From Actinomycetes bacterium (lineage in GTDB: Bacteria; Actinomycetota; Acidimicrobiia; Acidimicrobiales; Palsa-688): 7,684 nucleotides of DNA. Shown piece by piece: positions 2,887-7,547 of this stretch; the first letter of the stretch is position 1, and each line of letters starts with the position of its first letter. The DNA lies in NCBI GenBank assembly GCA_021808665.1, contig JAKBBA010000149.1:1-7684 (forward strand), in the 5' to 3' direction. A program made the position numbers and the translations under genes. The notes beneath the pieces were generated by a model. It searched no databases. It worked only from the letters and a program-made list of their open reading frames with translations, and was not told where the DNA came from.

Positions 2887-2906
2887 CATGGTATGAAAAG
2901 ACCATG
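2887..2906 (+). repeat. Small inverted repeat spanning the small ORF start codon
   Basis: CATGGT (2887-2892) and ACCATG (2901-2906) pair perfectly over an 8-nt loop, ATGAAAAG. The start codon of the small ORF (2904-2906) would lie in the stem and the only purine-rich, weakly SD-like tract (GAAAAG, 2895-2900) in the loop. This could modulate initiation, or be a short protein-binding palindrome. TATGAA (2892-2897) is also a weak -10-like hexamer, which would place a transcript start close to the ATG and make the mRNA leaderless. Confidence 0.35.
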
Positions 2907-3005
2907 AAAGTGGATAGTGCCGCCCTGCTGAAGAGGGTCGTCGAGGGGTTCGCGAAAGACGACGAAACCGCAGGTCCCCCGGCCCCCCGCCCTAATCTCG
3001 TCTGA
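2904..3005 (+). CDS. Small ORF (33 aa) translationally coupled to the Lhr-like helicase gene
   Basis: An ATG at 2904 opens 33 codons ending in TGA at 3003-3005, and the final A is the first base of the next gene's ATG (TGATG overlap). The peptide starts MKVDSAALLKRVVEGFAKDD, a likely amphipathic helix, and ends in a proline-rich tail. I recognise no family. The 911-residue gene has no Shine-Dalgarno sequence in the roughly 20 bases before its start, which are C-rich, so reinitiation by ribosomes finishing this ORF is a plausible route for its translation. That is the main argument that the ORF is translated. Its own ribosome site is weak (GAAAAG only 3 nt away), and a leaderless start is possible. 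It may be a leader or coupling peptide, or a small functional partner of the helicases. Its function is unknown. Confidence 0.5.
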   Translation: MKVDSAALLKRVVEGFAKDDETAGPPAPRPNLV

Positions 3006-5740
3006 TGGCACGAGCGCGGGAGGCTGGCGATTGGAACCGTGACCTGGCCGCAGCTCGCGCGTCCGAGGCGAAAGTAAAAGCGGCGCTATCGGCGCACCCT
3101 CTCGTGTCGCACCTCGCCGACTTCACATCCGAGATGGACGTGCTCGACTTCGAGTTCCGCTTCGAGGGAGAGCGGGTGCGGGTCGACGTGAAAGAGAAGC
3201 GTTCCGGCTACACCCGCGACTACCGCGAGGTCTGGCCCGAGGTTCCCGAGCCGGAGCTGTTTATCCTCGATGAAACGGCGTTCAAGGCGCTGATGTGGGA
3301 GGAGGGTCTCGGTTACCTTCTCATCCACGACGTGCCACAGGCCCGGTGGCTGGTGATGGGGCCGTGGGAGATAGCGCTCGGCCCGCGCCGGCGATTCCAG
3401 CGCCTCGGCGACAAGGGAAACGGAGAATTCCGCAAAGGGAAGCTCCTGCTCGACTTTCGTACAGCAAGCGCCGCAACTCGCGAGTTATCCATAGACGAGC
3501 TTCTGCGCGTCGTCGGGGAGAGCCGCAGGGCCCGCCGGCAGGTGGAGCCCTTCCATCTGCGAGACCGGCAGATCATCCCTGTCGTGCCAACCCCGCAGCG
3601 TGAGTCGGGGCGCCCGCATGTAGGCCAACAAAGGCCGTCTTTGTCCTCCACAGAACAAGCCGCGCCGGTGGAGGGTGAGTCTGACGGCACGTGGGCAGGA
3701 CTGTCGGCGGAGTTGGTCGCGGCAGTAAGGGACAAATGGGGATGGCCGGCTCCGACAGAGGTTCAGGCGCTGACTTTCCCCCACGTCCTCGACGGGGACA
3801 ACGTATTGGTCGTCGCGCCCACCGCCGGCGGCAAGACCGAGTCGGCTCTGCTCCCCGTGCTCGATCTGCTCCGCTTCGGTGCTTGGGCGCCGCCCTCGGT
3901 CGTCATGATCAGCCCGCTCAAGGCCCTGCTCGACGACCAGCTCATCCGCTACCGGAACGCCGCCTCCCTAACCGGAGCGACGGTCTTCGCCTGGCACGGA
4001 GACGTCGGGCAGGAGCAGCGCCGCGAGTTTCGCGAGCACCCAGCCGACATCCTGCTCACGACACCCGAGAGCCTGGAGCAGCTGCTGGGCCGGCCGGGTG
4101 GCGACGGGGGCGCCCTTTTCGCCGGGATCCGGGCAGTGATCGTCGACGAGGTGCACAGCTTCGCCGGCACGCCGAGAGGAGCGCAGCTTGTGTCTCTGAT
4201 GGAGCGACTCGATCAGCGCGCCAATGCCGACATTCAACGCATCGGGCTCTCGGCGACTGTGGGTGATCCCGCCGCGGTCCTCGAATGGCTGTCAGGAAGC
4301 TCCCTGCGAGAATCGCACATCGTCAAGGCGTTCAAGGCGATGAAGGGCGAGGAGCTGTCGTTTGCGACTTACGAGTCCCTCGACGAGGCAGTGTCTTTGG
4401 TAAAAGAAGTGACGAGTTCGCAGAAGGCCATCGTCTTCGCTCCCTCACGACGTCGCGCTGAAGAGTTGGCGCACCATCTCGGCGTAGCCGTCCATCACTC
4501 CTCCATCTCAGCTGAGGGGAGGGCTGGCGCTGTCCGAGCGCTGAAGGATGGATCGTCGGGTTGCGTGGTCGCCACCGCCAGCCTCGAGATGGGCGTCGAC
4601 ATCGGCGACATCGACCTGGCCGTCAACGACGGCGCGCCCTCCGGGCCCGCAAGCTACTTGCAGAGGCTCGGCCGCGCAGGCAGGCGAACAGGCAACCGCC
4701 GCATGCTTGTGACCGTTGGCGACCCTGACTCTATTCTGCTCGCCCTTGCCGTCGTGGCGCGAGCCCGGCGAGGGGATCTGGACGACGTCGCTCCGGGGCG
4801 AGGAGCGCGGCTCGTCATTGGTCAACAACTGCTGTCACTGATCTTCGAACAGACCACGCTCAAGAGGGCCGACGTCCGGGAGTTCCTTTGTTGGAGCCCG
4901 ACCTTCCGTCGCATCGAAGACGACATCGAGCAGACGATCGACCACCTGATCGGCGCCGGATGGCTCGTCGTCGCAGGGGGATACCTGGTCGCCGGGCCCG
5001 AAGCGCACGCCCGGTTTGGGGGAGCCAGTTTCGTCCGACTGCTCGCCACTTTCGATGGTACCTCGGGCGCTCTGGTCGTCGATCGCGCCGGTACGAGGCT
5101 CGGTTCACTCGACTGGAACCAGGTCGCCGACGACGCGGGGCAGCCGCGCCCTAGGCCAGTTGTACTCGGAGCAAAGCCGTGGCTTCCCGTTTCGATCGAC
5201 CGGGCGGCGGGGACGGTCACGGTAGTGCCGGCGGAGGAAGGCAAGGCCCCGAGCTGGCGCGGCCCGTCCATCGACGTCTCCCGCAAGACATGGGAGGCGG
5301 CACGCGAAATTCTGACCTCGACCGAGGTTCCGGCCGGATCTGATCGGCGGGCAGGGGAATGGCTGGAGGGGTTGCGGAGGAGGTGGGCTCCGAGGCTGGC
5401 CTCACCGGTCCGGCCCACTGCGGAAGGGACTACCGTCGACTCTTTCGGTGGCGTAGCCGTCCATCAGGCTCTGCTGCGGGCGCTCGCAGTGCAGGGTTCG
5501 GCCGACGGGCCGAGCTGTTTTTTGTCAACAACCCCTAAGGCGGCAGCGGAGCTCGCTGCAGGCGCTCTCGGCACATGGAACCAGACGATACACGCAGAAG
5601 CGGAATACCAAGCAGACCAGCTTTCCATTCGCCACAAGGAACTGTGCGCACCAGCCGTACTTCTTTCGGAAGCGCAGGAATATCACGTTGACCGAGAGGG
5701 ACTGCGAGCGGTGCTGAAACTGATTACCGGCCGATCCTGA
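3005..5740 (+). CDS. Lhr-type DExH SF2 helicase with N-terminal PD-(D/E)XK-like domain
   Basis: A 911-residue predicted ATP-dependent DNA helicase or nuclease. Residues about 15-120 look like a PD-(D/E)XK fold: Glu21 in a first helix, acidic residues Asp45/Asp48, then the strand VRVDVKEK with D61-x-K63 as the candidate catalytic pair. A charged, Pro/Gln/Ser-rich linker (about 175-230) follows. The SF2 motifs are complete: Gln254, motif I APTAGGKT (271-278), Ia SPLKALLDDQ (303-312), Ib TTPES (352-356), II DEVH (381-384), III SAT (416-418), IV IVFAPSR (476-482), V near 522-541 and VI QRLGRAGR (553-560). After about 600, the winged-helix-like and barrel-like region (GWLVVAGGYLVAGPEAHARF, then PSWRGPSIDVS) resembles the Lhr core, without the long C-terminal extension of full-length Lhr. 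ATG 3005 is the first possible start: an in-frame TAA lies 10 nt upstream. It overlaps the small ORF and is followed after 1 nt by the NERD-UvrD gene, so all are probably one transcript. Helicase call firm, nuclease call moderate. Confidence 0.92.
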   Translation: MARAREAGDWNRDLAAARASEAKVKAALSAHPLVSHLADFTSEMDVLDFEFRFEGERVRVDVKEKRSGYTRDYREVWPEVPEPELFILDETAFKALMWEEGLGYLLIHDVPQARWLVMGPWEIALGPRRRFQRLGDKGNGEFRKGKLLLDFRTASAATRELSIDELLRVVGESRRARRQVEPFHLRDRQIIPVVPTPQRESGRPHVGQQRPSLSSTEQAAPVEGESDGTWAGLSAELVAAVRDKWGWPAPTEVQALTFPHVLDGDNVLVVAPTAGGKTESALLPVLDLLRFGAWAPPSVVMISPLKALLDDQLIRYRNAASLTGATVFAWHGDVGQEQRREFREHPADILLTTPESLEQLLGRPGGDGGALFAGIRAVIVDEVHSFAGTPRGAQLVSLMERLDQRANADIQRIGLSATVGDPAAVLEWLSGSSLRESHIVKAFKAMKGEELSFATYESLDEAVSLVKEVTSSQKAIVFAPSRRRAEELAHHLGVAVHHSSISAEGRAGAVRALKDGSSGCVVATASLEMGVDIGDIDLAVNDGAPSGPASYLQRLGRAGRRTGNRRMLVTVGDPDSILLALAVVARARRGDLDDVAPGRGARLVIGQQLLSLIFEQTTLKRADVREFLCWSPTFRRIEDDIEQTIDHLIGAGWLVVAGGYLVAGPEAHARFGGASFVRLLATFDGTSGALVVDRAGTRLGSLDWNQVADDAGQPRPRPVVLGAKPWLPVSIDRAAGTVTVVPAEEGKAPSWRGPSIDVSRKTWEAAREILTSTEVPAGSDRRAGEWLEGLRRRWAPRLASPVRPTAEGTTVDSFGGVAVHQALLRALAVQGSADGPSCFLSTTPKAAAELAAGALGTWNQTIHAEAEYQADQLSIRHKELCAPAVLLSEAQEYHVDREGLRAVLKLITGRS

Positions 5741-5741
5741 T

Positions 5742-7547
5742 ATGGCCTACCTGATACCGGAGAACCTGCGCTCCAGGCGCGACGTGCCGCCCGGGGTGGC
5801 AAGGTTTGCCGGTGCACTGCGGGACGGGCTCGACGACGATGTCACCGTGTGGTACGAGCCGATGTTCGATGTCGAGGGGGAGCGGCCGGATCTCGTGATC
5901 TTGATGCCAAGCATCGGGATCGTCGTCCTCGAGGTGTTGGAGACGCGAGCGCTCGCGCTGCAGGGCGCTGAGGGAGAGTCGCTCGTCGTCGGTTCCGGGG
6001 CGCACGCCGGATCCACTCGTAACCCTCTCTCGCGGGCTCGCGAGTTTGCCCGGCATTTGGTGTCCGCGGTAGCCGACGAGTCGCGGCTACCGCCGGAAGA
6101 ACGGCTGCCCATAGCTGCGGGCGCTGTCCTTCCTTACGTGTCCTATGAAGCGTCGCTCACACGGGAGCTCGGAGACGTGTTGCCCCGAGAGAGCTGCCTG
6201 TTCCGGGGCGATGTCGAGGCGGGAGCAGCAGGAGAGGGCAGGTTCAGGTCGCGGATCAGCCGGCTGGTAGGTGCCCTACCACGTGACCCTCTGTCGGATG
6301 AAGCCGAGAAAGTGTACCGGGCGCTGATTCATCCTGACACCGTCATCGGCACGCCGCAGCTGCCGTTCCCCACCGTTGCGCGTGAGCACGCCGATGACGA
6401 GTTGCGGGTCCTCGACCGTCGCCAGGAGGCCCTCGCCAAGAGCCTCGGAGTGGGCCATAGGGTGATCCGGGGTGCGGCAGGCAGCGGGAAGACCCTTGTG
6501 CTCACCTACAGGGCTCGGTTGATGGCGGAGATTTTCCCCCACCACGGCGTACTGGTCACCTGCTACACGAACAGCCTCGCCGGACGGCTCAGGCAACAAC
6601 TGAAGCCGTGGCGGAATGTAACTGTCAAAACTTTGGACTCTCTCATGGACGAGGCTCGCCGCGGGGCCGGCATCTCGACCGACTACCGAGACGGCGACCG
6701 CGTCGAGCAGGCGGAGCAGGCCCTGCAGGCGCTGGACTCTCATCCGGAGTCGGTGGGCCGCTTCCATCATGTCCTTATCGACGAGGCGCAAGACTTTCCA
6801 AACCCGGCACTGCGCTTCGCCGTGCGGCTGCTCGTCGACGGCTCCGATTCGTTGCTGGCTGTCGCCGACCCCGTACAGAACATTTTTCGAACCCGGTTCA
6901 CCTGGAGGGCCGCAGGCATAGATGCCGTCGGGCGTACCCGCTGGCTCAACCAGAGCTACCGTAACACCCGCGAGATACTCGAGTACGCGCACCGCTTCGT
7001 GACTGGCGGCGGCGACTACCAGATCACCTCGGATCCCGATCCCGAGGACGAAAAAGCGATCACAGTCCCGCTCTTCAGCGAGCGAAGCGGGCCTATCCCG
7101 CTGCTGCTGACATCGGGCAGCCCTCAGGAGGAGGTGGTCAACATCGCCGGGCACTGCCGCAAACTTCTCGATCGAGGCGTACCCCCGAACGAGATCGCTA
7201 TCCTCTATGGAGGGACTTTCGTCGCCGGTTTCAAGTGGCCAGACTCGATCCGAGACTTCTTTGTCAAAGAGCGGCTGGCGTTGTTCTGGGCGACCGATCC
7301 AGCCGATCGGCAAGCTAGAAGCCGGATCGGCGACGACCCCTCGAAGATCGTCCTATCGACAATCCACTCGGCAAAAGGCCTCGAGTTCCGCCACGTCATC
7401 CTTTGCGGTTTCCTCGACGACAAACCCCCGGCGGAGTCGAGGGTCAGCCGCTCGCTCATTTACGTCGGCATGACCCGTGCGACGCACGAACTGACTTTGA
7501 GCGCGAGCGGCAAGCACCCGTATCTGGTGGACCTCGAGCAGATCTGA
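5742..7547 (+). CDS. NERD domain-containing UvrD/Rep-like SF1 helicase
   Basis: A 601-residue protein. The N-terminus (about 15-110) matches the NERD (nuclease-related) domain pattern: GERPDLVIL (46-54) followed by GIVVLEV (59-65), with Asp50 and Glu64 in the expected places. Position 66, where the E-x-K lysine is expected, is Leu (codon TTG), so nuclease activity may be lost. The C-terminal two thirds is an SF1 motor: Q-motif Gln228, Walker A GAAGSGKT (244-251), motif II DEAQ (347-350), motif III ADPVQNIF (375-382), motif IV NQSYRNTREIL (403-413), motif V STIHSAKGLEF (539-549) and motif VI YVGMTRA (574-580). It is shorter than UvrD or PcrA (about 720), consistent with reduced accessory subdomains as in other NERD-UvrD proteins. 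ATG 5742 follows the upstream stop after one base (TGATATG), so coupled translation and a shared task with the Lhr-like protein are likely. Probable role: unwinding or translocating on foreign or damaged DNA. Confidence 0.93.
   Translation: MAYLIPENLRSRRDVPPGVARFAGALRDGLDDDVTVWYEPMFDVEGERPDLVILMPSIGIVVLEVLETRALALQGAEGESLVVGSGAHAGSTRNPLSRAREFARHLVSAVADESRLPPEERLPIAAGAVLPYVSYEASLTRELGDVLPRESCLFRGDVEAGAAGEGRFRSRISRLVGALPRDPLSDEAEKVYRALIHPDTVIGTPQLPFPTVAREHADDELRVLDRRQEALAKSLGVGHRVIRGAAGSGKTLVLTYRARLMAEIFPHHGVLVTCYTNSLAGRLRQQLKPWRNVTVKTLDSLMDEARRGAGISTDYRDGDRVEQAEQALQALDSHPESVGRFHHVLIDEAQDFPNPALRFAVRLLVDGSDSLLAVADPVQNIFRTRFTWRAAGIDAVGRTRWLNQSYRNTREILEYAHRFVTGGGDYQITSDPDPEDEKAITVPLFSERSGPIPLLLTSGSPQEEVVNIAGHCRKLLDRGVPPNEIAILYGGTFVAGFKWPDSIRDFFVKERLALFWATDPADRQARSRIGDDPSKIVLSTIHSAKGLEFRHVILCGFLDDKPPAESRVSRSLIYVGMTRATHELTLSASGKHPYLVDLEQI

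Follow-up and report, generated by a model that had tools for sequence, protein, structure and literature searches.

The presence of two directly adjacent genes for helicases of different superfamilies in this actinobacterial DNA raises the question of whether they constitute a single system and, if so, of what kind. The window, meaning here the whole 7,684-nucleotide stretch that was analysed, stops 137 bases past the end of the second gene. Gene 1 (3005–5740, + strand, 911 aa) encodes an N-terminal PD-(D/E)XK-like domain and an Lhr-fold SF2 helicase that groups with BrxHI and SngC; gene 2 (5742–7547, + strand, 601 aa) encodes a putative pseudo-NERD domain and a UvrD-type SF1 helicase. The two genes span about 4.5 kb. 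The initial annotation had described a directly coupled two-helicase unit, and both elements of that description were borne out: the one-base overlap between the frame at 2904–3005 and gene 1 at 3005, and the one-base gap before 5742, were confirmed, gene 1 is an SF2 helicase (Pfam DEAD, 8e–30; Helicase_C, 2e–19), and gene 2 contains the UvrD-type SF1 parts. About 60 full-length relatives of gene 1 at 44% identity or more were found among the matches listed, as were at least 120 relatives of gene 2 at 41% identity or more, a few of them partial. Because relatives are plentiful and a spacing of 1–3 nt recurs in the window and in loci L133, L001 and L002, the genes are not chance ORFs, and the two-gene pair is real. 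The interpretation favoured here, with a probability of roughly 0.5, is that the two genes would specify one two-motor helicase–nuclease complex that attacks invading or abnormal DNA and contains one live and one dead nuclease.

The start of the unit had been placed at position 2904, and this did not survive comparison with related loci. The mini-ORF at 2904–3005 (+ strand, 33 aa), whose last base is also the first of gene 1, does not qualify as a conserved gene: DNA homology with L133 begins only at 2922, so that the start codon is missing there and only the last ~25 codons are common, and in L001 and L125 nothing resembling the mini-ORF was found ahead of the helicase. A three-gene unit was ruled out on this basis, and for the same reasons the mini-ORF is probably a remnant that lies outside the system. 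An inverted repeat (2789–2839, unstranded), with perfect 18-bp arms and a 15-nt loop, was also considered as a component and rejected, since in L133 its counterpart (4266–4308, matching 2793–2835 of the window) is flanked by a pair of convergent ORFs, next to an ABC-transporter cassette; the repeat is probably a left-over terminator. The metabolic surroundings that had been reported are indeed present, in the form of genes for an LLM-class oxidoreductase, an SDR and a TetR-like regulator upstream of the pair.

The two genes are adjacent, with a spacing of 0–3 nt, in all five family loci examined (the window, L133, L001, L002 and L125), as had been anticipated for orthologues of a genuine unit, and they were not encountered as scattered single core genes. 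These five loci are not independent, in that L001 and L002 share one genomic place and the window and L133 another; moreover, the L002 contig begins inside the helicase, at the contig edge, which leaves the nuclease domain outside the sequence there. On a wider scale, 27 of 70 helicase clusters pair with a NERD-UvrD cluster, compared with 0 of 50 generic helicase rows, by a proxy that scores equal length of the longest contig and not presence on the same contig; the match of P0059, counted among these 27, is probably fortuitous. P0241/P0196 and P0242/P0179 add two further such pairs. The linked unit is rare, which agrees with the accessory nature initially ascribed to it. With the best few candidates per genome scored, family rows besides those of the centre genome, G001, were found in 0 of 394 genomes of the class (1/395 with G001), 1 of 396 of the order (2/397), 3 of 147 relatives (4/148) and 0 of 395 of the phylum (1/396). 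A contig scan yielded at least two family loci among the 80 matches listed, and MAGs of Acidimicrobiales or Acidimicrobiaceae account for seven of the nine family rows that carry an organism name.

Among relatives whose context is known, L133 is the closest; its helicase and its NERD-UvrD protein show 89% and 93% protein identity, respectively, to those of the window. The left flanks of the two loci are common at 92–93% nucleotide identity; the interval between the regulator and the helicase is ~0.26 kb long in the window but is taken up in L133 by a ~3.9-kb stretch with the ABC-transporter cassette. On the other side, homology stops 11 bases past the NERD-UvrD stop codon. Given the common left flank, the pair has therefore been kept vertically there, in a spot that is variable on both sides. 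A short frame upstream of the L133 helicase (6781–7140, + strand) looks, as read from the letters, like a truncated ribbon-helix-helix antitoxin. The neighbours in L001 and L002 include an ArsR-type regulator, a circularly permuted ATP-grasp protein and G6PD, among others, and are of no known defence type. In L125, the Wadjet II genes JetA2, JetC2 and JetD2 are situated upstream, and JetD2 ends 42 nt before the helicase. The L125 copy itself (10587–14776, + strand) looks broken, either decayed or mis-assembled: the helicase sequence is split among three frames, its Walker A stretch is missing, and a single stop, at codon 408 of 596, interrupts the NERD-UvrD gene. Of the five loci, then, L125 is the only one with a recognised defence system beside the pair, as the initial annotation had suggested for orthologues.

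These surroundings are relevant to the possibility that the pair functions in housekeeping or niche-specific DNA repair. Lhr and UvrD-family helicases process recombination or crosslink intermediates, and the pair would, on that account, do the same. The vertical inheritance implied by the left flank is in keeping with such a role, as is the finding that no recognised defence genes adjoin the pair in the window, L133, L001 or L002 among the neighbours scanned. However, the unit is too rare for a core repair gene (0/394, 1/396 and 0/395, as above), and the sequence on both sides of it differs between two close relatives.

The placement of the SF2 motor bears on the same point. The Lhr-core module (3680–5740, + strand; residues 226–911) comprises two RecA lobes and a C-terminal part, and fold comparison of the helicase part indicated the presence of the Lhr core fold, which would also suit a role in repair. 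The profile scores, however, point elsewhere. The best defence HMM for gene 1 is that of BrxHI (489 bits, 5.6e–147, residues 233–831); SngC gives 302 bits, the best HamB model 45.5 bits and the best NCBIfam model 195 bits, while the Lhr model PRK09751 reaches 123 bits against a cut-off of 1496. For comparison, the Lhr row L104 scores 480 bits to Lhr 5v9x, and gene 1 scores 147. In the tree, gene 1 stands apart from six long Lhr rows at 100/100, in a clade that is separate from BrxHI despite BrxHI being the best model. By sequence, then, the motor groups with the antiviral BrxHI and SngC helicases and not with housekeeping Lhr, and this position outside the long Lhr clade is a further argument against a repair function, which is judged unlikely. 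The DUF1998 zinc-binding domain, a feature of the DISARM, Druantia and YprA helicases that is also noted in PMC12458937, gave no Pfam match to gene 1, nor any in residues 566–911 at a limit of E=10. According to PMC12278908, SngC, BrxHI, DruE and DpdJ potentially make up a clade of their own among SF2 helicases, with antiphage functions as its defining trait.

A complex of the kind favoured here would require a nuclease, and the initial annotation had assigned a nuclease-type N-terminus to each protein. That assignment is supported for gene 1 but, as far as an active nuclease is concerned, not for gene 2. Residues 1–180 of gene 1 (3005–3544, + strand) form a PD-(D/E)XK-like domain with E21 (3065–3067), D48 (3146–3148), D61 (3185–3187) and K63 (3191–3193), all on the + strand, as candidate active-site residues. 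In an alignment of the window with 62 relatives, from which P0057 and the mostly truncated rows from P0064 on were left out, D48, D or E at position 61, and K63 are each kept in 63 of 63 rows; E21 is kept in all 45 ungapped rows, the remaining 18 being gapped. The N-terminus thereby displays the conserved E, D and (D/E)xK motif of PD-(D/E)XK nucleases. The predicted order of its elements, helix-strand-strand-strand-helix-strand, with D48 before strand 2 and D61-x-K63 on strand 3, is the PD-(D/E)XK layout.

Database searches with this domain returned little besides its own family. Pfam at a limit of E=10 gave no match for the first ~180 residues, a profile search of PDB sequences with ten N-terminal pieces gave 0 matches, and no PADLOC model covers the N-terminal part, the matches starting at residue 191 among the 25 listed. 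When the N-terminal part alone was used as query, among candidates limited to 0.55–1.75 times its length and required to share short words, 44 proteins were found, every one of them of gene 1's helicase family. For gene 1, Foldseek and VIA listed helicases, in a comparison that covered the helicase part only. The domain thus appears to be family-specific and to represent the new part of the protein, and it is seemingly a working nuclease. Two BrxHI-like helicases of 917–920 aa (P0118 and P0119) carry a PF01612 exonuclease-type domain, possibly a second nuclease–helicase fusion in this helicase group.

The situation in gene 2 is different. In its NERD-like N-terminal domain (5742–6356, + strand) the catalytic Lys is replaced by Leu66 (5937–5939), while the UvrD-type SF1 motor (6408–7544, + strand; residues 223–601) keeps Walker A and the other motif residues checked. 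Column 66 of the gene 2 alignment contains L in 99 rows, V in nine, F in five, I in one, M in one and a gap in six; the Lys of the E-x-K motif of active NERD nucleases is therefore found in 0 of 115 ungapped rows. The Pfam NERD model gave no match to residues 1–216 at a limit of E=10, with program filters that drop most weak matches. The PADLOC model C3a187 ('NERD+UvrD') matches gene 2 over its full length (213 bits, 2.1e–63, residues 12–600), as against 74 bits for the GajB model, and the motor also matches AddA and AdnA. NERD appears under 'Nhi-like' (NERD plus SF1 helicase) in a table of PMC10952713.

A model with two live nucleases was rejected as the main reading in view of the loss of the Lys from all 115 ungapped rows. 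Such a dual-nuclease complex could still exist if the NERD domain were active by way of another basic residue, and position 69 is K or R in 107 of the 115 ungapped rows, with E64 kept in 102 and D50 in 81. Against this, D50 is replaced by H in 30 rows, and position 69 does not represent a migrated residue, because in most live relatives a K or R at this position accompanies Lys66 (EVKDWK). This version is accordingly given only a slender chance, and the N-terminus of gene 2 is considered to be NERD-like but probably not a nuclease. A viral origin of the pair was also rejected: in viral contigs the gene 1 query found no relative, and the gene 2 query found at least ten NERD-UvrD-like rows, the best among the matches listed being 26% identical.

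Unexpectedly, related NERD-UvrD genes were found directly behind three kinds of SF2 system, namely the window type, a DEDDh-DinG-RecQ-like fusion, and Shango. In the fusion loci (L134, 8506–15682, – strand; L135, 4494–11603, + strand; L136, 2427–9965, + strand), a Lys-less NERD-UvrD gene is situated 40–165 nt behind that of a 1717–1895 aa protein with matches to DpdF/PsyrT (RecQ-like), DinG-like and DEDDh exonuclease families, and Pfam RNase_T was detected in both of the fusions scanned. L134 additionally contains a gene for a calcineurin-like phosphoesterase after this pair, and a second, more distant NERD-UvrD gene at 15811–17535. Of ten further Myxococcota loci, two (L168, 1237–9191, + strand; L169, 7497–15386, – strand) have NERD-UvrD as a fourth gene, 8–9 nt behind a complete Shango SngABC, and its Lys is intact; the Shango matches in L168 have E values of 1.5e–91 (SngA), 2.2e–182 (SngB) and 8.6e–276 (SngC). 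Elsewhere, a NERD-UvrD gene on a Nostoc plasmid is one ORF away from CRISPR-type Cmr genes, and in Pyxidicoccus a distance of 3.6 kb separates one from BREX-2-like genes; in the remaining loci, neither of the two kinds of SF2 helicase probed was found directly upstream. Among 39 genomes that hold generic BrxHI-like helicases, one has a NERD-UvrD protein at E≤1e–50. In L186 (4241–9080, + strand), the gene for a 962-aa UvrD-like helicase, whose flanking parts are unassigned, directly precedes a Lys-keeping NERD-UvrD gene, giving two SF1 helicases in tandem.

The state of the NERD Lys correlates with the kind of partner. All eight loci (8 of 8) whose SF2 partner carries a nuclease lack the Lys, namely the three DEDDh loci and the five window-type loci, among which the truncated L002 and the broken L125 would have the nuclease by kinship. 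It is kept in 20 of 21 others, both Shango loci among them. The 21 loci were judged to lack such a partner by two protein probes (17 loci), a search of L153, and annotation (three plasmids, fetched from 24 records with coverage of 80% or more), on the basis of 1546 upstream bases in the case of L185; the tally leaves out the SF1 relatives in L181, L183 and L186, the second L134 gene and the viral rows. The single exception is the cyanobacterial L187 (7032–9044, – strand), with motif Q-V-I, in which the Lys is lost, there is no SF2 partner, and no ORF of 150 aa or more lies directly upstream on the same strand. All Lys-less rows in the 40-row tree other than L187 form one clade (98/99), and this tree includes, of the 29 tallied loci, only the window, L134–L136 and 13 others, L187 being one of them. 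Because the Lys-less rows form one clade, the correlation reflects mainly one persistent loss and not eight events; L187 would represent a separate loss of the active site. Further Lys-less rows are P0206, P0213, P0223 and P0234. Searches of other phyla for the Lys-less subgroup gave 0/201, 0/69 and 0/68 in three sets that had no positive control, and in a fourth set 4/68 genomes carried the Lys-keeping type and none the Lys-less.

These data also address the view that the two genes share a transcript and nothing more, their products functioning independently, with gene 1 acting, for example, as a one-protein restriction factor. The many NERD-UvrD relatives that have no SF2 helicase directly upstream would suit independent action, whereas the recurrence of adjacency with three different SF2 systems and the persistence of the Lys loss in the partnered clade would not, and separate action is regarded as quite improbable. 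A more general interpretation is offered tentatively, with the odds somewhat against it: NERD-UvrD may be an exchangeable second motor for at least three unrelated SF2 systems (REase-BrxHI-like, DEDDh-DinG-RecQ-like and Shango SngC), subject to a rule of one live nuclease per pair, such that NERD decays to a DNA-binding platform when the partner brings the nuclease.

Within the proposed two-motor complex, the SF1 motor of gene 2 would engage DNA ends or single-stranded gaps, and the dead NERD domain would serve as a platform that binds DNA or the partner. The Lhr/BrxHI-like SF2 motor of gene 1 would move on the other strand or arm, and its PD-(D/E)XK-like domain, as the sole live nuclease, would cut the unwound DNA. 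Self DNA might be spared by sensing of damaged or over-replicated DNA, a guess modelled on what is reported for Hachiman (PMC12278908). Adjacency in five loci, together with the invariance of the gene 1 residues and the loss of the gene 2 Lys, speaks for such a complex. A role in defence is inferred from the helicase group to which gene 1 belongs, the Shango association of gene 2 relatives and the one broken copy behind Wadjet. On the other side of the balance, four of the five loci have no recognised defence neighbour, the single copy next to Wadjet II looks broken, a NERD-UvrD protein turned up in just 1 of 39 genomes with generic BrxHI-like helicases, the N-terminal domain of gene 1 matched nothing in Pfam or among PDB sequences, and there is no modification gene to explain the sparing of self DNA.

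If the proposal is correct, bacteria build helicase–nuclease immune machines from interchangeable motors while keeping one working blade, and Shango, BREX-type helicases and SF1 nuclease–helicases would be mechanistically linked. The sequence of a NERD-UvrD protein would then suffice to predict whether it can act by itself or depends on a partner that brings a nuclease. The pair is small, and hence easy to test.

As the initial annotation had surmised, none of the named systems was matched in its entirety in the profile search of defence models. Among the titles and starts of abstracts listed from the open PMC literature, none described the pair, which does not prove its absence from print. 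With BREX type 2 the pair shares a BrxHI-type helicase, gene 1 having the Lhr core fold. BrxHI is described in PMC12839542 as a Ski2-like helicase with wHTH, HAS barrel and Lhr CTD that forms a linked dyad with BrxD, and a BrxHI gene does lie beside BrxD and PglZ in L141. In the pair, by contrast, a nuclease domain has been added to the helicase and BrxD and PglZ were not found, so membership in BREX-2 was rejected. Shango likewise has a related helicase, SngC, and two of its loci carry a NERD-UvrD gene with intact Lys as the next gene; the pair differs in its dead NERD, in the fusion of a nuclease-like domain to the helicase and in having no SngA (TerB) or SngB beside gene 1, and Shango membership was rejected on the latter ground. 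For BrxD, PglZ, SngA and SngB there was no tblastn match at 1e–4 in the stretches searched (the window, L133, L001, L002, L125 and L126); as controls, the BrxD and PglZ probes match L008, the SngB probe reaches BrxD in L008 and L141, and the SngA probe was controlled only by its own source, L168.

The PADLOC candidate family C3a187 matches gene 2 over its full length, but in relatives that fall outside the Lys-less clade the NERD motif is almost always retained, and an SF2 helicase gene immediately upstream is the exception. AddAB, AdnAB and RecBCD are two-motor helicase–nuclease complexes in which some domains are catalytically dead and the motors are SF1; the pair would follow the same logic, except that one of its motors is SF2. 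Housekeeping Lhr shares the core fold with gene 1, which neither scores nor branches with it. Hachiman HamAB also combines a nuclease with an SF2 helicase, as a sensor of DNA state (PMC12278908); its nuclease is a separate protein, no SF1 motor is described there, and HamB scores 45.5 bits on gene 1 against 489 for BrxHI. ARMADA type II appears to be the nearest idea to the pair, by analogy, since there a GajB-like SF1 helicase, with a toxin domain at its N-terminus, comes after an SF2 helicase that bears a nuclease domain (PMC12458937); it differs in its YprA-type SF2 helicase, in comprising four genes, including a methyltransferase, and in a RelE-like and not NERD-like N-terminus. Taken together, these comparisons suggest that the pair is distinct from BREX, Shango and Lhr and may represent a variant of the nuclease–helicase kind of defence.
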